NCBI GenBank assembly: GCA_025331445.1
Contig: JAIWNE010000030.1
Span: 124,001 to 188,000 of the forward strand
DNA: 64,000 bases
Direction: 5' to 3'
Origin: Blakeslea trispora
Taxonomy: Eukaryota; Mucoromycota; Mucoromycetes; Mucorales; Choanephoraceae
The notes under the pieces were generated by a model. That model saw nothing but the letters and a program-made list of their open reading frames with translations. It was not told the DNA's origin and did not search any database. The stretch's first letter is position 1. Every line of letters begins with the position of its first letter. This document shows positions 52,065-62,913 of this stretch, piece by piece. The translations under genes were made by a program, and so were the position numbers.

Positions 52065-53587
52065 ATCAAATAAAAGCAAAGCTGGTCTTTGCTCTTTTTC
52101 TTGCTTCTTTTTACTACAAAAACTGTCTTTTGCACTTCGAGCATTAAAAACATTTACATACGCTACTAGCACTGAGCAACAGCTTTTTTACTCTTCGTAA
52201 AGTTAATGATTATGGCTAGCAAAGTTTGGAAAATATGTTATACGGTGGTTGAATTTTTATTGTTAGGATACCCCTCAGTCGCTTCTTCCCTCTTGTTCTG
52301 TGGTGCCCTGATTTTAATTAAAACGCATTATTATGACTGTCTTCCTACAATGGTAAAACATACCTATTGTGTTATGCTACACCATTTACCTCAAATCATA
52401 TAAAACCACAACAACCCTCTTCCTCACACATCTTGTTTTTTTTCTCTTCCTCACATTCTATTTCAATTTAAATACTTTTAGCTTTACTTATATCAATTAA
52501 CTCATTACCAACAATTTGGTTAGTATTATTAACCACTTATTCTTATATTTTATGTTTTAACCTACAACTTTTATCCAGTTGGTAACTGTATTTTAAATAA
52601 ACTTTGAACCACAAATCACTCTCTATAAGGCCTACCAGCTTAAATTTTGAAAAACCGACCAACTTTGAAAGCCTTCAAACAAGAAAGTTTTTATGAAAAA
52701 AAATATTCTTTTACGATAACATTGTTTAGAAAGGTTATAAAGACATTCTTGTTGTGCTAGATTCTCAAAACATCCATCTCATAAGTGTATGAAAGATTTC
52801 AAAAAAGGGCTATATTTGGTGTTTTAAGCTCAGAGGCACTTTATGAGCTTTTGTTTATTAAAAGCAAAAGAATGAGTCAATGATCTTAGAGATTAGATGT
52901 CTGTTTAATAGCAAGGAAGTTTCTTTGGCAGAACTTTTTCCCTTTTTTTTATTGGTGCTTGAGGGTTTGGATTCTACTAGATAAGAAAATAGAAAAGAAA
53001 TAACAACAAAGTCAGAAAGTCATCGGAATAATAAAACCTTAGCGAATATGTGTAATATCTATTTGCCTATACTTCTGCAAAGTTTGCAACCATCATAGAA
53101 CTAACCCATGAGTGACGTCAATTTATCTTCTTGATCTGAGCAAGTCCGATGTTAGACCTTTGCTTTAACACTTTGAATAATCAAGTGCCTTCTTATACGA
53201 GCATCCTCAACATAAACCAAATGATGTTTTGGCCATTTGATTTTCCTTTACTTTTGATGAAAGATTCAAGGAGACTCATTTTGCTTGACAGTCTATCACA
53301 ATTCACTGTTCGACTCTTCATCATAGTAACTTATTTGAGGTCCTGAAAAAAGATGTGCCTTTTATTTATACAAAATCAATCAATTAACGGTTTTATAATA
53401 AAATGAGAAACTTTGGTTTGTATTATCACATATATCCATTAGCTTAATTTCAAAGAGAAAAGATGATCTGTAAAGCTTTTTCATAGTGTCTTTTGAGGGC
53501 TTCAGTTGCCTTGACGAATCGCAATCATAATTCAATCACAAATGTACATGGAAAAAAAACTACACAAAACAAATGAAGCAAGGGGCT
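52065..53587. other. Gene-poor interval
   Basis: No coding signal; AT-rich with A/T runs. Short frames at 52206 and 53149 lack support. Confidence 0.4.
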
Positions 53588-53898
53588 GTACACAACAGAG
53601 CATGCCGTTACAGGCTCTAAGTCCTGGCGGGTGATGTTTATGTACAGAGAAACATAATATATGTACATAGCAGAGCATGCCGTTACAGGCTCTAAGTCCT
53701 GGCGGGTGATGATTATGTACAGAGAAACAAGAGATGAACGCAAGAGAGACGAAATGTACACAACAGAGCATGCCGTTACAGGCTCTAAGTCCTGGCGGGT
53801 GATGTTTATGTACAGAGAAACGCAATATATGTACATAGCAGAGCATGCCGTTACAGGCTCTAAAAGTCCTGGCGGGTGATGATTATGTACAGAGAAAC
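53588..53898. repeat. Tandem repeat, four copies of about 66 bp in a two-step higher-order pattern
   Basis: Copies at 53588-53653, 53663-53728, 53756-53821 and 53831-53898 share GAGCATGCCGTTACAGGCTC and GTCCTGGCGGGTGATG, ending in TACAGAGAAAC. Copies 1 and 3 start GTACACAACAG, copies 2 and 4 start GTACATAGCAG; spacers alternate short (about 9) and long (about 27), so the real unit is a 168-bp dimer. A partial fifth core (CAGGCCATGCC) follows. It lies 120 bp outside the big element's left end. Confidence 0.85.
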
Positions 53899-54017
53899 AA
53901 GAGATGCACACAGCAGGCCATGCCACTACAAGTCGCTACATCTTTTTGCGCACTTGGGCAGGCCTTAGAAAGAAAGACTTGATTTTTTTTGCACACTGAC
54001 TAAGCAAAATATTAGCA

Positions 54018-54101
54018 GGGCTGCTGTGTCTGGGGCTACTCCGCCGGTAATAAGCAATACGATTGGACACCTTTAGCCAATAAGCCTTGTTAATACCGTC
54101 G
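54018..54101 (+). repeat. Left long terminal inverted repeat
   Basis: Starts GGGCTGCTGTGTCTGGGG, continues through CTACTCCGCCGGTAATAAGC and ends near TAATACCGTCG; reverse complement of 62520-62605. Confidence 0.9.
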
Positions 54102-54209
54102 TTGTATGAAGTTATCGTATTTTCAGGTCAAATCCGGGAAAATTTATATTAGCGCCGGAATTTTTGCCATATCAATTCAGAAAAAAATCAGCTCAATTAC
54201 GTGAAAATA

Positions 54210-55563
54210 AAAGTTCAAATACGGAGAAACTAGCTGATTCAAAAACGTGAAAAATACATCAACAGAGAGATCTAAAGACATAGGCAAGCTATAAAGAAAT
54301 AAGTTAGTGGAAATAGTTAGATACAAAAATAAATAATACATCGCACTTTTTCTTTATTTTTTCTTTATAATACTTCACTAAATCTTATTAACCAAGTTAT
54401 TTTATAAAGATATTCATTCAAGTTAACAATGCCCAGAACTCAAAAGAACATCAATCAAGACTCAAAGCGCACATACACTAAGACAACTGAAGCAATTCGT
54501 ATGGCTGTTTGTCATAACTTTTTTGCCAAAGGAATGAAAATTTCTGAAGTCGCTAATAATTACAGACTTTCTGACAGTACTGTGGATGACGATACTACCC
54601 GCTTTCGTCTCACAGGTACTGTAGAATACAAGAAGCGCGGTGGCGCAAGAAACATCAAGTTCCAAAGCAACCATTCCGATTTCTTGAGAGACCTAATTGA
54701 TGAATAACCTGAAGGCAACATCCTTAGTCTGGAAAAGCTCAAGGAAAGACTGATGGATAGATTATCTGAAGACTTCCCAAATGAAAAGTCGGTCAGCATT
54801 GCTGTTATCCACAATCACGTCAATGATCATCTAAAGCTCACCTTAAAAAGAACTTCGCCTCTGGAAAAGGCTCAGCTGCAACCAGCCACCGATGAGAAAC
54901 GAAGAGAATATGCCGAAAGCTTGCAGTTGAATGGGATTAACTATCTCACCAACTGTATTTTTGTTGATGAAAGCGGATTCAACGCTTGCATGGTTCCTGG
55001 ACAAGCTAGATCCAAGAAAGGTAAAAAGGCACATGTCCTTACAAAGGTCATGCGAAGCAAGAATATATCCATCATTGCAGCCATGTCATCAAGACGAGTT
55101 GAATCTCTCCAAGCTGTTATGGTCAATACCTCCACCAACAGGTTTATTTTCGCTGAATTCATCAAGCAATTGTTGGAATGGCTCGATAAAGAGTATGACC
55201 AGCCGATGTTTGTCATTATGGACAATGCAAGATTCCATTATAGCAAGGAGGTACAGGATCTTTTCAAGACCTCAAAACATGCGTGCGTTTTCTTGCCTCC
55301 CTACTCGCCAATGTTCAATCCTATTGAAACTTGCTTCAGCAAGCTCAAGAACTTTGTTAAAAGATCGCTCAGAGAAGACAGAGACAACATGCTTGATCTT
55401 ATTGAAGATGCTGAAAGAACAATCACTGGTAATGACTGTGAGGTATGGACCAAGCATTGTATTGAAAATCTCAATAAGTGTATCAGAGGAGATGATATTA
55501 CTTATAACAATTAATAAAATTTCTTTTGCAATCTTTACGTTTTTGAATCCGTATTTGAACTTT
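54210..55563 (+). mobile_element. Nested Tc1/mariner-type transposon, 1,354 bp
   Basis: Ends AAAGTTCAAATACGG (54210-54224) and its complement (55549-55563) are each flanked by TA (54208-54209 and 55564-55565). The inverted match resumes inside with ATTCAAAAACGT (54237-54248 and 55537-55548) after a 12-base insertion in the left arm. It encloses one DD34E transposase pseudogene. It interrupts the left part of the larger TIR-bounded element, so it arrived later. Confidence 0.85.
54429..55514 (+). pseudogene. Tc1/mariner (IS630) DD34E transposase, one in-frame stop
   Basis: One reading frame from ATG 54429 to 55514, broken only by TAA at 54705-54707; without it the protein would be 361 residues, normal for the group. 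An N-terminal helix-turn-helix (MKISEVANNYRLSDSTV) is followed by a linker. The catalytic domain has the first Asp in FVDESGFN, the second in FVIMDNARFHYS and the Glu in PPYSPMFNPIE, with 34 residues between the second Asp and the Glu. Everything apart from the stop is intact, so loss of function is recent, or read-through would be required. The stop lies between the DNA-binding and catalytic domains. Confidence 0.9.
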
Positions 55564-55747
55564 TATTGTTGGTCGTGCCTTCAACAATCCTTGTTGACTT
55601 CGACTCGGATTCCAATGTGGTAATAAGCTCCAAGAGCCGCGCTTTATTTTCCTTTTATGGATAAAAAATAATAATAAAAATAAAAAATACATATGTGATC
55701 CCCTTTTCCCTTTATACCTTCAAAAGCCGCGCATTCGTGGACAAACT

Positions 55748-56302
55748 ATGAGTGATATCAATATTAGTGAAAATGAACGAACATACACCCAAAGCGAAAT
55801 GGAAGCCATTATCAGAAACGTCGTTCAACAGATCGACAACGAGAAAGAAGAAAGAGCCAGTGGAATTGAAATACCATTGGAAATCTCTGATGCATTGGCA
55901 AACACCTCGTCGCATCAATTGCAAGAGAACTTTAGAAAGTTCAAACGAGACACGCAGCGATATGCTTTGGACGAATGGACAACCCCAGAAAAAATCAACA
56001 GGACAATCCTCCCTCTCCTCAAGAAACATTCAACAGAAACAAATTTGGTTGTCAACTCCATTCATAAAATTACAGAAAATACTAGATTCCAAGCCAGAGT
56101 GGCAACAGAAATCTTCGAACAGTTACAATATATGTTGGGGGAAGAAGTTACCCAAACAGAAGCAAAGAACATTGTTGAAAAATGTATGGAACAAAGTAAG
56201 CGCTTGGCAATCTTTGGATTCGCCACAGCAAAGGCACAAGAAAGAGAAGCAAAAGAATTCTCAGACAAAGCTCTCAACATCCCAATCAGTATAGTATGTT
56301 AG
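55748..56302 (+). CDS. Unrecognised 184-residue ORF inside the composite transposon
   Basis: ATG at 55748, stop TAG at 56300-56302. Hydrophilic and helical: SENERTYTQSEMEAIIRNVV, FRKFKRDTQRYALDEWTTPE, EEVTQTEAKNIVEKCMEQSK, AKAQEREAKEFSDKALNIP. The same frame stays open after the TAG for 31 more codons (YHQVFFNPKIDRFLWNQYYS...YDYDE), so the stop may be a nonsense change in a 216-residue protein. It is much better preserved than the transposase relic that follows. I do not recognise a family. It may be an accessory protein of the transposon or a capsid/gag-like fragment from another element; evidence for either is weak. Confidence 0.5.
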   Translation: MSDINISENERTYTQSEMEAIIRNVVQQIDNEKEERASGIEIPLEISDALANTSSHQLQENFRKFKRDTQRYALDEWTTPEKINRTILPLLKKHSTETNLVVNSIHKITENTRFQARVATEIFEQLQYMLGEEVTQTEAKNIVEKCMEQSKRLAIFGFATAKAQEREAKEFSDKALNIPISIVC

Positions 56303-56381
56303 AGATATCACCAAGTATTTTTCAACCCGAAAATAGACCGCTTTTTATGGAATCAATACTACTCCATGGGAGATAAGGAGT

Positions 56382-57420
56382 ATGACTATGATGAGTAGAT
56401 TGGCCTCTTCACTTTGCTACAAGAACAAAATCATTAAAATTTCTACATTTCCTAAAGTATTGGATTCCACTAAGTTCACAGATGAGATCTACATCCTTTT
56501 AAGTCGAATGTACGATGCCATCCTCAATGATAGACTGTCCGAACCTTCATTTAAACACCTTGATCTTCGCCAAAAGTTTATGAAGCTTCTTGGCATTACG
56601 CACCATGCGGCAAAAAGAGTCATTCATATCTACAACAACCCTTCGGAAGCTTCCGAAAGAAAGGAGGTTGGCCAACCTCGCAATGTACTTTCTTCGGAAT
56701 ATATTTCAACAGTAAAGACATTGTTTGAAAGAACAATCAGGAAGGCAGACCTACCACTGCAAAATCAATCAACAAGAATCTTAAGGAAATGCACGGTATT
56801 GAGATATCCAATTGTAGCATTTCGAGGGATTTCCATGCCATGAGGCTGTCTTACAAGACCGGAGACAGAAAAAAACATCAATCACGACGCACCTGCCAAT
56901 GTCAACTATAGAAATAAGTATGTCATTCAAAGGCTACAAAACATCAATGGCAAAGGTCAGCCAAAGCAACTCAAAATGTTCTAGGGTAACTCTTTAGCCA
57001 TGTGAACCATTATGCCAAGAAGACCTGGGCAGAACCTGGAGCCACCATACTTCAAAGAGGTAGGGGCTCAATGTTGGCCATCTTTTCTGCTTTCATGGTC
57101 CACTGTTCCAACAAAAAGACTAAAGCCAGCATGATAAAAGCCTGCATTAGGGTCTGGCATGTCAAAGGAAGCAGAGGTGTTCAAGCAGACTATCACGGCA
57201 ACTTTACCACTGACAAATTTGAACATCTTTTTGAAGCTCTTTGTCGCTCATTGAGAGAATATGGCAATGCATCATCCACATGGATGGTGCTTCTTATCAC
57301 AGACGCCTCTTAATTCCTGTGCCAACATGCAACAGTAAAAAAGAGTCTCTGAACCAAGCAGCAAGATACAACAAGAGCTTCGTGGAGGAGTGCGCGAGTG
57401 CACCTATGGACGGCTAAGAT
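56382..57420 (+). pseudogene. Second IS630/mariner-type transposase, decayed and 3'-truncated
   Basis: Successive frames carry parts of a transposase. 56382-56843 contains a helix-turn-helix-like N-terminus (LRQKFMKLLGITHHAAKRVI; EVGQPRNVLSSEYI). From 57002 the catalytic domain is readable: KKTWAEPGATILQRGRGSML, then GNFTTDKFEHLFEALCRSLR. After a frame change near 57275 comes IHMDGASYHRRLLIPVPTCN, equivalent to the second-aspartate motif of IS630/mariner enzymes (HMDxAxxH). The first-Asp region is scrambled and the PPYSPxLNPIE end is missing: homology stops near 57410, next to the end-like sequence at 57425. It differs from the transposase at 54429, so two mariner-related families are present. 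Confidence 0.7.
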
Positions 57421-57506
57421 TGAGGCAAGGCTGTCATGTCTGGGGGGAGAGAAGGTTTAGCAATTTAAAGCAATTAGAGTTTATGTAACACTTACAACCT
57501 TGCTCA
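57420..57506 (-). ncRNA. Candidate omega (guide) RNA region and element-end-like sequence 3' of Fanzor
   Basis: On the plus strand 57425-57447 reads GCAAGGCTGTCATGTCTGGG..., a degenerate match to the outer part of the long terminal repeats (GGGCTGCTGTGTCTGGGG). It is oriented as a left end and begins about 60 bases beyond the Fanzor stop. In TnpB, IscB and Fanzor systems the guide RNA overlaps the nuclease 3' end and runs to the transposon end, taking its guide from outside. I infer by position only that this stretch, together with the 3' part of the ORF, encodes the scaffold. No conserved fold was computed. Confidence 0.3.
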
Positions 57507-60500
57507 TCACGCTTCGCATGCAGCCAATACACCGCTTCTTGTACAGAAGGATGCTGTTTTGTTGTGCAGTTCAGTGTTAGAGTGACTGATAATTCTTGAA
57601 AATACAGGGAGAGTTTCTTGGAAGAGCAAAGTTGTCATTCCGGAGATGGCAATAGCAAGGGCAGACACTTTATCTCTGGAGGTTGTGTTACGACCGTGAC
57701 GAGCAGAAGGGCACTTGGAATTATAACAGATAAAGGCACCTTTGATTTCTCTATAAGTTATTTTGTCTTGTTTGATAATGCGCGATCTTGCATGAGTGAG
57801 CTTGTTGAAGCAATACACACAAGTCTGGGAAGTATAGTTTTCGTTTGTTATACAGACAGTCGTATACCTTGCATGCCTATCTTGTTTCCAAATACCACCA
57901 TATCTAAGATGTCCTCTAATTCTGGAACCTATCCCAAAGCCACGATCACCAATCATCATCAACAGGTTCTTTCTTTGTATTTCTTTTCCTTTCTTCTTGA
58001 CATCTTTCTTTTTCGGTTTAGGGTTCGTAAATTCCCTTTCGCGAGAGCAAAGGCGGTCCTTGATTTTCTTGGTAAAGTATTCCTGCTTCATGGCCTGTTT
58101 AGATCTTTGTGGAGAATCATAAAAGTTCCTGACTGTCTGTCTATTGGCTTGCAAAAAATGATAGTTTGTCTGGATTGCTTCTACGGAACTTGCATTGGAT
58201 AAACTTTTTTCGGACAACACCTTCTCAGCTTCAATCAAATTCACATCATTTGCTTTTTTAGCAGCAAGCTTGTGTCTGTAGTTCAAGTTTTGGCTTCCAA
58301 AGTCAATGTCTTCAGCGTTGATGACAGTGGACGACGGCAAAGGCTGAAATTCTTCTTCTTGTTCTTCAGTAGTAGTCAACGCAGAAAACCTGTTGTAGAG
58401 CTTCAGATAGTAAGTGTATCTTTGAATAGAAAGGGGCACTGATTCAGTCATTTTGACAACACCATTGTCTGTGCCGGAGAAGGTAAAATTTTTAGCAATA
58501 GTATCAGCGTCACCCATCAGTTGCATATCTTCAGCTTTAGCAATCGTAGGCTGGCCCGTAATCTGCTGCAGTTCTCTGGTCTGTCTGGGCGCTTTTTGAT
58601 CTCTTTTTGTCAAATTTAATGCTCTTCTGCGGATATACAGCTGGTATCGCTGGTCTGCCAGTTCAGACTTGACTTGTTGAATAGCCAGAAACAACCTACT
58701 TCTATCAGCCTTCAACTTATCAATGTACACCTTGATCTCATTTATAGCAGCAGTAATAAACTCTTCATCATTATTGGCATGCGGACGTCGAATATGAACT
58801 TGTATATTTCTGACAATGTCTGCAATTTGTTTCTGAACACCAGTCATACATTCATCAATTTGAGGACAACATACACCTGCCTTTTCTTCAGAATCACTAC
58901 CCTGCACAACAGCAACTTCAGGTTCTAGACCAATTGGGTTTTTCCAGCCTTGCTTGGCGGTTTTGATCTGCAAACTAAAATCTTGATTGCTGAATTCTTT
59001 AAATCTGGTTTTCAGCTGCTTTGACAAACGGTTGGTGTTCCCCAAGAGTTCATCGACTTCTTGTTTCAAGGTTTTATTGTCTTTTTCACGCTCATTGAGT
59101 ACATCTTTCCAAGTCGATTTAGGAATGTTGTATTGACGCTTTTGGCCTGTTACATCAGCAGTCTGCTTCATGGGCGCTTTCTCTTTGATACCAAGGATTC
59201 TGACATACTTTCCACCAGGCAGCAAATGAAGATGATGAGCAAAAACCAATTTACGACGTCTGCATAACTGTTGTATTCTATCAATCTTAAAAAAAGCATT
59301 GAAGACAGCATCTTTATGATTGATATATTCCAAAGGGCCCCTAATGACTCTGTTGTCATAGCCAAAAAATGTCATTTTGTTGTCACCATGCTCGCAGAAT
59401 GTCTTGAATAACGAAGGTGTATCCAGTCTAAAGGACTTTTGAGTTGCAACAGGCATTGGGCAAATTTTACGACAGAACTTAGCATAGCCAGCACAGCGCA
59501 GCAAATCGTTCGCAAGAATTACAAAAGGTAGCTGGTAGCCAATATGAGAATAGTTTTTCTTTGAAGGGATGTAAGGTTTTAAGCGTCGTAGTATAAGCAA
59601 ACACATTTCTGCTTCCTTCTCATTCAAGTCAGAGCGCAGACCTGTCAAGTCTTGTTCGTTAGGCAAATCTTCATCACGCAACAGCAAGCTCTTGATAAAG
59701 CCTTTTAAGCCAATAAACCTGTGTCTAGGAGCATCATCATCAGCATCTTTTATAGCATCCTCTTCTTCGACAACATCATTTTCATCCATGCTTGCGTAGT
59801 CTTCTGGTGTAGCAGGCAGAATAGTGTGTGTCTCTCCTGTCATGGGTGGTTAGAAAGTAACAGGTTTCGGATCGCTTTGGGGATTCATTGGCGCTTTCCC
59901 TTTTCCTTCGTACGGCTGTGTGGGAATATCTAACTCCATGCGACTAGTATGTAGCATACTGGGACCAGTCTCAGCAGAAGCAGTAGAGGGATATTGGATA
60001 GCAGGGATCTTTCTTGGACGCTCAGAACCTTCGGCGACATCAGGCTCAGAAGGTTGTTTTCTCTTGGCAGAAGTAGTTTTGGGTTCCTATTAAAAATGGT
60101 ATAATAGATATAGATGAGTGACTGATTTCCCGTTGATTGTAGGCATACATACCTTAGTTTCCAGAGCTTTTGTGTATGTTGCGATACGTTTCTCACTTTT
60201 TTGGGCTCGAGCTTCCCATTTTTGCTTCATATACGCAGATGATGAGCTTTTTGATTTTTGTCTGTATTTTGCAAGCCGGTAACGTTCTTTGCGGACTATT
60301 AACCTTCTTCTGCTTTGATGGAGCAGTGGAAACCAGTTGGTAGGATGACCTGCTTCTGTCTTACTTCCTTTTGCAGCTTCGTCTTTTCTTTCTTTAGAGG
60401 CATTTTTCGTAGACTTGATATATTCTTGATGCTTTTTTTCTCTTGTAGGAGCCAAATGAATACGTAGCAACACTAACAAAAGCTTGTCTAGGAGAATGTT

Positions 60501-61587
60501 GATCATCTTGTTATCACCCCACATGACAGATAGATTGGTAATACAGTTAGTCAATGCAGACTCATAGCAGGCCATATGAAGAGTGTTTTTTGGTTGGATG
60601 AACTGTTTGACTGAGTCAGAGATGGCTTCCATTAACAGGGTTCTCAAAGGATAATCTGTTTTGGTCTTTGTTTTCAAGCCACGAACACCATAAAAACCAG
60701 ACTTCAAAAAATGAATATGTCGGTCAGTGAAGAGAAAAGGAATGTCATTAGCATCAGGAGAGGCAAGAAAGTTGGAAGCATATGGAGAGGCAGAAAAAAT
60801 CAAGGTATCTTGTAGCTGAAAGTTACTTGGGAAGATGCTTTGTATTTGAAAGCCATTTGATCTATCAAATACTGATTTTCCATTGCGAACAGCAAAAGTA
60901 TGGCTTCAGAAACAGGACATTATCATAAACATGATTTTTTGAAAGTCACTGATAAAGTTGGAGGTCTGAGGCAGTAGTTCAGCAAGCTTAGTATCAAAGA
61001 GTTGTCTAACTTCAGGTGCAAGATCATCTCGTATCAACGAGGGAAAATACGCAGTACAGACTTCAAAATATTCTTCAACAACAACAAAGGGAGCAGGTTC
61101 GGTAGGGAGCTCTTCTGAAGAAGGTTCAATGGCTTGAGTAGAGCTAGTTGCTTCAGTAGTAGGATTGCTTACAGACTCTTGGACGACATCAAAATTTTGT
61201 TGGGCATATCTTCTCCAAAGATCAATTGCTCGAGACACTGAATTATCATTTTGAAATCTGTTTGCAGATTCTCGCAAACCGAGGTTAGCATGTTTATCCA
61301 TATCAGCATACAGTCCTCTTGGAATTTGACCAGCAAGAGTTTTGGCTTTGAGAGCAGAGTAGTTTGGCTTCTTTTTGTTTTTTTTCACGGATAATGTTAT
61401 CGTGTAGCTTGGCTTGAGCTACGATATAAACCAGGTCATGGAATTCTTCTACAGACATTTCGGATGCACGTCTCATGCCAGGAGCTATGGTAGATGGTTG
61501 TTGTTGCACATTGACAGACAACTGGGGCGCAGGAGTATAACGACCGCCCAAATAGAATGTATCTTGTAGAGCCCTGCGGTAGGACAT
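57507..61587 (-). CDS. Fanzor: TnpB-like candidate RNA-guided endonuclease
   Basis: Catalytic exon 57507-59836 lies in a 778-codon ORF whose first ATG is at 59843; residue numbers count from there. RuvC-I is FSGTDNGVVKM (Asp459), the RuvC-II region is MIGDRGFGIGS, and Glu668 in ITNENYTSQTC sits where rearranged Fanzor active sites place their glutamate. A zinc ribbon has C675-x2-C678 and C706-x4-C711, and RuvC-III is TSRDKVSALAIA (Asp724). Upstream, the same frame continues through exon 59960-60086 (introns 59837-59959 with CTAAC-CAG, and 60087-60152), then 60153-61388 and 61303-61587. Splicing the 123-base intron removes both the TAA at 59850-59852 and the ATG at 59843. Two joints stay unsolved: an A8 run near 61380 needs an intron or is a frameshift, and a TGA at 60906-60908 needs an intron or is a nonsense codon. 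Full length would be roughly 1,250 residues. Catalytic half intact; activity unknown. Confidence 0.82.
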
Positions 61588-62519
61588 TGCCTAAGAGGGA
61601 TTAGATCTATTCATAGCATATTAGTGGGGCAGATATATCAAGGTCAGAATAAAATATATCTTACTCCTTCAAGCAATAAGAGATTAGATGTATTAGAAGA
61701 ATCTAACAGATGAGGTAACAGAGAGAAAGAGAAAAACAGAAACAACTTTTTTTGCCTTTTATATGATAGATTGTATATTCTTTGTTCTCTTTGTGTAACA
61801 CTTGAGTGAGACAAACAAATCAGAGTCTTAAAATTGAAACTTTTTGAATATAGAGATGAATGTCGAAAGTTTTACCCCGAAATTCAACAGCAATTGACAA
61901 CCATTCTACAATAAATAGGCTTGAATGAACCAGGATGTCATAGTATGCTTGGGAAGAAAAAGAGCTTTCTGATCATGAGATCCTGATTCATGCAAGTCCA
62001 TTTCTTGTAGAATGGCTATTAATTACAGATAAATTTCAGGATGAAACTTTCAACACTTATTCCATATGCCTCAAAATGTATATTGCTGATGATTTTTACC
62101 CAAATAATCACATTACTCTGTAATTACAGACTTGATTCCATAAATGGGGCACTTTTTCATTTTCAGAAGGACTTTCTTCATTCTGACATGCTTGTCAGAA
62201 GGTCCTCTGAACGTTCAGCCAGAATGATGTTACTCGAAAGCATGTCTTTCATTGACTTCTCTAATAGTGTTTCTTATATGAAATACAGCTCTTTTAAGGA
62301 TTGCAGGGCGTTACTGGCTTCGTTTATGAGACAAAGCTTACTTCGTTAGCTTGATTGTCTTACTCACTTTCGTTTCTTATTTGTAGTCGAACAAGCTTTC
62401 AATCACTGTAATTTTCTTGATGAATTTCTTTGGTAGAAGAGAGAAAATTTTATAGTTTTTAGTAATATTCTGTTTGAGCCCACTCATCAAAAGGCATGGC
62501 ATGTGAAAGCTTAAATGAG
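61588..62519. other. Fanzor promoter side of the element
   Basis: About 930 bases between the Fanzor start and the right terminal repeat. A plus-strand frame at 62041-62349 has no recognisable content. A minus-strand TATATAAAA-like stretch (CATATAAAAGGC, about 61755-61766) could serve as a TATA element for the Fanzor transcript. Confidence 0.35.
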
Positions 62520-62605
62520 CGACGGTAATAACAACTTTTATTGGCTAACAGTGTCCAATCGTATTGCTTATTACCGGCGGAGTAGCCCCCCAGACACAGC
62601 AGCCC
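62520..62605 (-). repeat. Right long terminal inverted repeat
   Basis: On the minus strand it begins GGGCTGCTGTGTCTGGGG, has two extra G before CTACTCCGCC, and ends TTATTACCGTCG. Confidence 0.9.
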
Positions 62606-62913
62606 CGCCAAGATTGACTTCTCGCTGAGTTTAAATCAGTAAAAACAAAGTTTTTAGTTTTATTTTTTTGAAAACACAATCTCAACAATGGTCAGTGATG
62701 GCTTGCAAAGAATAAGGAAACAAAGAACATAGGCATAATCCCGAGCACTGGCATTAGCAAATGGTACAAATTTTCTCGTTCAGTTTGTAGTTAACATTCA
62801 TATATATTAGCCCTGAGACAAATACGACACAGAGGATTTGAACATCATCTCCCTTTGTTTAAAAAGCTTTTCTATCAATACATTGTTGGCATGTCTGCCA
62901 AGATTGAGCAACA

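Follow-up and report, generated by a model that had tools for sequence, protein, structure and literature searches.

Which mobile element carries the Fanzor-like gene found in a stretch of the Blakeslea trispora genome, and is the product of that gene a nuclease of the Fanzor (eukaryotic TnpB) kind? The stretch, called the window, is the 64,000 nucleotides of C210:124001-188000 in a genome assembly of 37.2 Mb and 285 contigs. A first-pass annotation of the same DNA had attributed it to a mucoralean-type fungus, in agreement with its host. The Fanzor-like element is named the F element, with a left end (LE) and a right end (RE) in the Fanzor sense, and elements carrying a putative transposase are named T elements. 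It is probable, in our assessment, that the F element is a non-autonomous DNA transposon of B. trispora whose sole gene encodes a large, highly diverged Fanzor1-like nuclease, and that it works by the mechanism given below.

The F element in the window occupies 57424..62609 on the minus strand (5,186 bp), with the LE at 62609 and the RE at 57424. These edges are common to the genome copies and are flanked by a perfect 8-bp target-site duplication, AAGATTGA, at 57416..57423 on the RE side and 62610..62617 on the LE side. The LE terminal repeat is ~105 bp long (62505..62609, minus strand, from repeat and genome-copy comparison), and the RE terminal repeat of ~24 bp (57424..57447, minus strand) is related to the LE and to the RE of T elements. 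Genome copies were scored at the best 40 of 74 candidate places for the RE side, using a query of 121 bp that spans the 3' side of the open reading frame (ORF), and at the best 40 of 91 for the LE side, using the 5' repeat; copy counts are lower bounds. Non-self matches on the RE side start exactly at 57424 in 29 of 39 cases and within 9 bp of it in the other 10, and the genome copies stop ~83 bp past the Fanzor stop codon. Among the matches scored, 31 of 40 LEs have an RE partner within 12 kb. Twelve of these pairs measure 4.94-4.99 kb (subfamily A), nine measure 5.71-5.75 kb (assigned to subfamily B in those with a protein match), four are deleted copies of 751-760 bp with both ends kept, and six are of other lengths (4.57, 5.21 for the window copy, 6.0, 6.3, 7.1 and 10.2 kb). 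The subfamily A and B proteins are ~51% identical.

An 8-bp duplication agreeing at 7-8 of 8 positions was found in 24 of the 31 pairs (23 at 8, one at 7), and three of the four deleted ~750-bp copies have 8-bp duplications. Two points count against such a uniform picture: six pairs (C248, C113, C1:873198, C262, C107 and C243) have no matching duplication, and the LE edge of the C216 pair was not recognised. Four of the mismatched copies, C248, C113, C1 and C107, each have one flank in common with another copy and so are likely products of recombination or assembly chimaeras. Single flanks are common to C248/C107/C242:206147, to C113/C45 and to C74/C1:873198, the other flank differing in each case; the RE of C107, C248 and C45 lies <=520 bp from a contig end. 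A genome search for a paralogous empty site of the window insertion matched only the two flanks themselves.

The first-pass annotation had instead placed the gene in one mariner-associated transposon of 8.6 kb whose ends were the repeats at 54018 and 62605. Those repeats are truly inverted and similar (54025-54116/62505-62596, 92 nt, 83%; 54008-54035/62588-62615, 28 nt, 89%), and a DDE_3 ORF lies between them (54753-55514; PF13358, 1.9e-29). The genome copies, ending at or within 9 bp of 57424, and the perfect duplication around 57424-62609 show that the two repeats are not the ends of one transposon. The left repeat belongs to an LE-like remnant of a different copy (54015..54116, plus strand, from LE comparison), not the partner of 62609, and no paired RE was found for it among the scored matches. 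It is 86% identical to T-element LEs over 108-115 bp, an alignment that reaches further in, and about 90% identical to Fanzor-element LEs over a shorter stretch of ~90 bp. The DDE_3 ORF is part of a mariner-type insertion with its own terminal repeats (54206..55567, plus strand, from repeats and Pfam), separate from and outside the F element. The F element is not a mariner, because its duplication, 8 bp in 24 of 31 pairs, is not the TA of Tc1/mariner elements and the DDE_3 ORF sits outside 57424-62609. A mariner carrier of the Fanzor gene is rejected on the duplication and the element edges, and we give the 8.6-kb model next to no chance of being right.

The minus-strand ORF described in the first-pass annotation is present at 57507-59843 (778 aa) with D459, E668, D724 and the motifs then quoted. 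It is the C-terminal part of a longer gene product. In subfamily A the intact gene has two exons, a 66-nt intron and a 1,337-aa product whose N-terminal region is long, and it is uninterrupted in three of nine modelled copies (10 gap-free subfamily A copies were examined, one of which had no recognised start). On the minus strand of the window, exon 1 is at 60153..61587, the intron GTATGT..AATAG is at 60087..60152 (from the gene model), and exon 2, which holds the 778-aa ORF, is at 57507..60086. The intactness claimed earlier thus applies to the catalytic residues and not to the gene, which is broken upstream of the ORF by a homopolymer frameshift near 61378 and by two in-frame stops (60906-60908 in exon 1 and 59850-59852 in exon 2). 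The reading frame continues through both stop positions in relatives P0003 and P0011, and in P0011 through the frameshift as well. For 10 pairs among five copies with an open second exon, the ratio of nonsynonymous to synonymous divergence (dN/dS, as mean dN over mean dS) is 0.23, which places the Fanzor-like protein of these open copies under purifying selection. The window copy has a dN/dS of about 0.4 against the five open copies, as expected of a decaying copy.

The protein was compared with the Fanzor1 motif of Bao and Jurka (2013), D-X(125,275)-[TS][TS]-xx-C4 zinc-X(5,50)-RD, with zinc spacings set in the present analysis. The full motif is present in the window ORF and in P0005, P0007 and P0010, its second half is present in P0014, and none of 5,000 shuffles or of 38 T proteins has it. 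By alignment, on the minus strand, the codon of D459 (RuvC-I motif TDNG) is at 58467..58469, that of E668 (NENYTSQTCVYC) at 57840..57842 and that of D724 (SRDK) at 57672..57674. E668 is in the position of the alternative catalytic Glu, with six residues between it and the first zinc cysteine, C675, and the conserved Gly, G632, is 36 residues before it. The same spacing of 36 residues (G500/E536) is given in an excerpt of Bao and Jurka 2013 (PMC3627910). The zinc segment of the Guillardia theta Fanzor1 (GtFz1), taken from a printed alignment, scored 31.15 against the family profile (probability 72.8) and exceeded all 160 decoys, whose maxima were 16.25 (60 shuffles) and 22.98 (100 T-protein pieces). 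A TnpB-like segment from the B. trispora genome matched weakly (probability 4.2). Homologues are few, with 13 proteins found first and 19 with a profile, and the named ones are mucoralean. Viral contigs gave 24 pattern matches and no confirmed relative.

Several results weigh against this assignment. Only 3 of the 19 listed homologues carry the full motif, the other 16 being mostly partial predictions or without parts of it. The RuvC-I motif is DNG in all six aligned sequences and DYG in P0009, and not the DPG reported as nearly exclusive for Fanzors in part of PMC10711439; an excerpt of PMC10432273 describes the metal site of the Spizellomyces Fanzor (SpuFz1) with D383 and N385. The 778-aa ORF has no Pfam match at E<=1, its relatives match no TnpB model in Pfam or NCBIfam, and PF07282 has 17 matches elsewhere in the genome and none in the F-element protein family. 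The TnpB/Fanzor profile check suggested with the first-pass annotation thus gave no match for the ORF. Protein Data Bank (PDB) sequence searches with the ORF, the family profile and the C-terminal profile returned no Fanzor match, and AlphaFold2 models, with a mean predicted local distance difference test score of 48 and 42, were unusable for the RuvC D-E-D pocket.

On these grounds the protein might not be an RNA-guided nuclease, being instead a degenerate RuvC protein or a transposition accessory, with the conserved RE serving only as a transposase-binding end. The missing TnpB hidden Markov model (HMM) match, DNG in place of DPG, the occurrence of both ends in both subfamilies, and the helix results given below (no compensatory changes, and a minimum-energy fold that is not the helix at every RE length) speak for this. 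D459, E668, D724, the zinc ligands and the Gly-36-Glu spacing are, however, retained in relatives only 38-55% identical, dN/dS is 0.23, and the ~135 bp of conserved RE, which enter the coding end, far exceed the ~24 bp in common with T elements. We judge a non-nuclease function unlikely. The label Fanzor1-like is applied because of the motif, the Glu and Gly spacing and the GtFz1 zinc alignment, and membership is provisional given the DNG motif and the TnpB-model misses. The Fanzor-like nuclease of the first-pass annotation is therefore retained, on motif, spacing, conservation and an alignment above 160 decoys, as a provisional and highly diverged Fanzor1-like nuclease predicted from sequence, without a TnpB/Fanzor profile match.

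A second, PF07282-positive TnpB/Fanzor-like family is present in the genome with six members over the cut-off (C1:618090, C20:33602, C233:102916, C13:12014, C223:49018 and C234:213168). Four PF07282-positive loci (L088-L091) looked fragmentary and are weak comparators only.

The RE of the F element is likely an omega-RNA region, as judged from its conservation and predicted pairing. The candidate scaffold is at 57424..57559 (minus strand, start approximate), where the DNA is near-identical across subfamilies; this segment of ~135 bp takes in the final ~50 nt of the ORF and extends to the element edge. Consensus sequences of nine subfamily A and eight subfamily B copies are equal at 87 of 90 columns (780-869), the differences in the rest of the segment being mostly due to a poly-C stretch that varies in length, and upstream in the ORF they are equal at 449 of 750 columns (30-779; 60%, 12 to 25 of 30 per block). 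A 15-bp helix is formed by GCAAGGUUGU..GUGUU right after the stop codon (57487..57503, minus strand) and GACAU..ACAGCCUUGC at the element end (57425-57440); it is paired in 522 of 525 cells and fully paired in 32 of 35 distinct REs. The helix is the minimum-energy fold of the window RE at 80-100 nt and, near 105-115 nt, in one of two calculations. Deleted copies of the ghost or miniature inverted-repeat kind retain both ends together with the candidate RNA region of the RE: all four ~750-bp copies keep the RE segment in the RE alignment, and the two aligned copies retain 412-439 bp of the LE and 247-249 bp of the RE. ORF-less ghost copies retaining the omega-RNA are described for Spu-1 in an excerpt of PMC10432273, and part of PMC10711439 places the terminal inverted repeat and duplication inside the scaffold of other Fanzor1 guide RNAs (reRNAs).

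Evidence on the other side comes from the same region. Changes in the helix are one-sided with no compensatory pair. For the window RE at 105-160 nt with the duplication left off, another pairing has the lowest energy at most of the lengths tried, including 130-160 nt. In 4 of 35 alignment rows a small RE hairpin is disrupted. Fold z-scores are modest for the window RE (-2.78 at 80 nt, -1.26 at 105 nt and -1.11 at 145 nt), +0.3 for the RE of C231, -0.95 for one deleted copy, and -1.53 and -3.22 for two T-element REs with different folds. Rfam gave two matches, both under the gathering scores of their families. The two subfamilies also agree at ~89% over ~400 bp of the LE, so binding of the transposase or gene conversion could be the reason for the common ends. 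If conversion was recent, or if the internal gene was exchanged, near-identical REs and LEs alike would follow without constraint on an RNA, and the single flanks in common among C248/C107/C242, C113/C45 and C74/C1 indicate that recombination or assembly chimaeras occur. Against exchange, RE identity is higher than LE identity and drops within the coding end, and the deleted copies keep the RE stretch. Exchange is a possible though doubtful cause of the RE conservation, and an omega-RNA is still the preferred reading of this end.

The F element is probably moved in trans by a DUF6729/3'-5' exonuclease protein encoded by elements with related ends. The LEs of T elements C234 and C256 are 89-91% identical to the F-element LE over 93-102 bp. 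The C234 T protein carries PF20499 (DUF6729), its C112 relative carries PF20499 and PF01612 (3'-5' exonuclease), and the C256 protein was assigned by protein similarity alone (82%). The T-element RE terminus CAGACATGTCACCCGAGCC, found in four copies (C57, C112, C157 and C216, with one substitution in C216), is related to the F-element terminus CAGACATGACAGCCTTGCC. The sequence common to F and T REs is ~24 bp, compared with ~135 bp conserved among F-element REs. Listed relatives of the T protein number 38, the named ones from Mucorales except for two basidiomycetes. The T protein appears to contain DDE-like residues, as read from the alignment consensus with no domain match, and DUF6729 was not mentioned in the literature searched. 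Against a simple donor relationship, four of the six T copies inspected have an RE and no recognised LE edge, and in two (C234 and C256) an LE and no RE were found; the T-element duplication could not be shown because no T copy was recovered with both ends.

Two loci join or adjoin the two kinds of element. At L086 (C112:171900-179330) a DUF6729/exonuclease element is joined directly to a Fanzor element without an LE terminus, and its exonuclease domain appears, from the alignment consensus, to lie between parts of the DDE-like region. At L087 (C57:131500-136700) a 5'-truncated DUF6729 element starts beside sequence matching the LE flank of the Fanzor element at C57:115782.

Insertion sites carry a target motif on the LE side. 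The 24 duplication-verified sites have the consensus TTNAAACTCCG at -18 to -8, that is, 7 bp before the duplication; in the window the motif is TTTAAACTCAG at 62625..62635 on the minus strand. A match of >=7/10 occurs exactly at this offset at 22 of 24 sites (the same counts leave-one-out), at 12 neighbouring offsets in 0-1 of 24 sites, and at 0.33% of window positions on both strands; the motif is missing at C249 and C264. The T element C256 has it at an equal spacing, with 8 of 10 positions agreeing, and C234, which is without it, counts against a target motif common to both kinds of element. The motif resembles the B-box, TTCRANNCC. A tRNA or B-box target was rejected, with the motif out of register with the B-box and 0 tRNA genes found by ARAGORN in 17 LE loci. 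The LE itself contains ACTCCG ~27-32 nt inside the element (window 62578-62583), like the core of the external motif.

The fixed distance could also mean that the Fanzor-like ribonucleoprotein (RNP) picks the insertion sites, with CCG as target-adjacent motif (TAM) and the 15 nt to the element (7 bp plus the 8-bp duplication) matched by the guide. This spacing, fixed at 22 of 24 sites, fits the 14-15-nt guide of SpuFz1 given in an excerpt of PMC10432273 and the 15-bp heteroduplexes of SpuFz1 and PpFz1 (Parasitella parasitica Fanzor1), with 9 bp for GtFz1, in part of PMC11423790. The 15 nt from CCG to the insertion would then be the Fanzor R-loop, at whose end the RNP directs the DUF6729/exonuclease transposase to insert, and this would be a eukaryotic case of RNA-guided DNA transposition. 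Site 15-mers, however, resemble the RE flanks of other copies no better than shuffled expectation. Aligned at the duplication (40 LE x 31 RE flanks), the best match was 11 of 15, and 104 of 200 shuffles did as well or better; aligned past the duplication the best was also 11 (without shuffles). The 11-bp motif is also much longer than the TAMs named in the literature seen. Guide-directed insertion was rejected for want of excess similarity between sites and RE flanks of other copies; we hold both RNP site choice and its R-loop version to be very improbable. The insertion point itself has no visible TAM, since the duplication, the spacer of 7 bp and the RE flank are little conserved, and this weighs against the preferred reading of the F element.

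The direct observations here are those of anatomy, conservation, selection and insertion preference. In the proposed mechanism, transcription of the RE would yield an omega-RNA, with the terminal helix as part of its scaffold and the flanking DNA as its guide. The Fanzor-like protein with this RNA would cut DNA matching the flank, such as an empty or allelic site, and repair after the cut may copy the element back or favour its retention, by analogy with the proposal for TnpB. Transposition proper would be carried out in trans by the DUF6729/3'-5'-exonuclease protein, and TTNAAACTCCG may be read by that type of protein or by a host factor.

Among known systems, GtFz1 (PDB 9CER) is similar in its zinc region (E-x-Y-T-S-Q-x-C-x-x-C and a CxxxxC second knuckle); it is an RNA-guided nuclease, and the F-element protein is predicted to be one too. 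It differs in that there is no whole-chain sequence match, the F-element RuvC-I is DNG, intact F-element copies encode 1,337 aa with the long N-terminal region, and the last catalytic residue is Asp, whereas the GtFz1 triad is reported with Asn in an excerpt of PMC11423790. The Spizellomyces Spu-1 (SpuFz1) likewise has a Fanzor gene between inverted ends, and its ORF-less ghost copies retain the RE/omega-RNA region (a candidate omega-RNA in the F element); unlike Spu-1, the F element has a likely trans-acting transposase, and its target motif stands 7 bp away from the duplication, whereas Spu-1 has an adjacent CA. The mucoralean Fanzor1 elements of Bao and Jurka (MCi-2, MCi-4, MCi-5, ROr-4 and PBl-3) are also Fanzor1-type genes in Mucorales DNA transposons, several without their own transposase, but have 9-bp (MuDr), 11-12-bp or 6-bp duplications where the F element has 8 bp and DUF6729-type partners. 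The mariner-borne PGv-1 and PUl-1 have a Fanzor1 within a DNA transposon with inverted ends, together with TA duplications and an encoded mariner transposase, neither of which the F element has. PpFz1 is a mucoralean Fanzor as well and was shown to cut DNA with a loose ATN TAM, but no PDB Fanzor chain matched the F-element family profiles.

The F element adds a Fanzor-like lineage that was missed here by TnpB HMMs, with many copies, open relatives and selection on the protein. Its deleted copies retain the candidate guide-RNA end, and a likely transposase partner (DUF6729 plus exonuclease) can be named for a Fanzor element. With the strict target motif and its position relative to the presumed guide, what a Fanzor does for its transposon can be tested directly in a fungus that grows in culture.

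Two further features lie to the left of the F element. Degraded ORFs adjoining its insertion point (56382..57313, plus strand), which gave no Pfam match above the cut-off, are presumably transposase-like, judging by their motifs. Just left of the LE remnant, a 109-nt direct repeat occurs four times in window 53587-53938, spaced by 75/93/75 nt.

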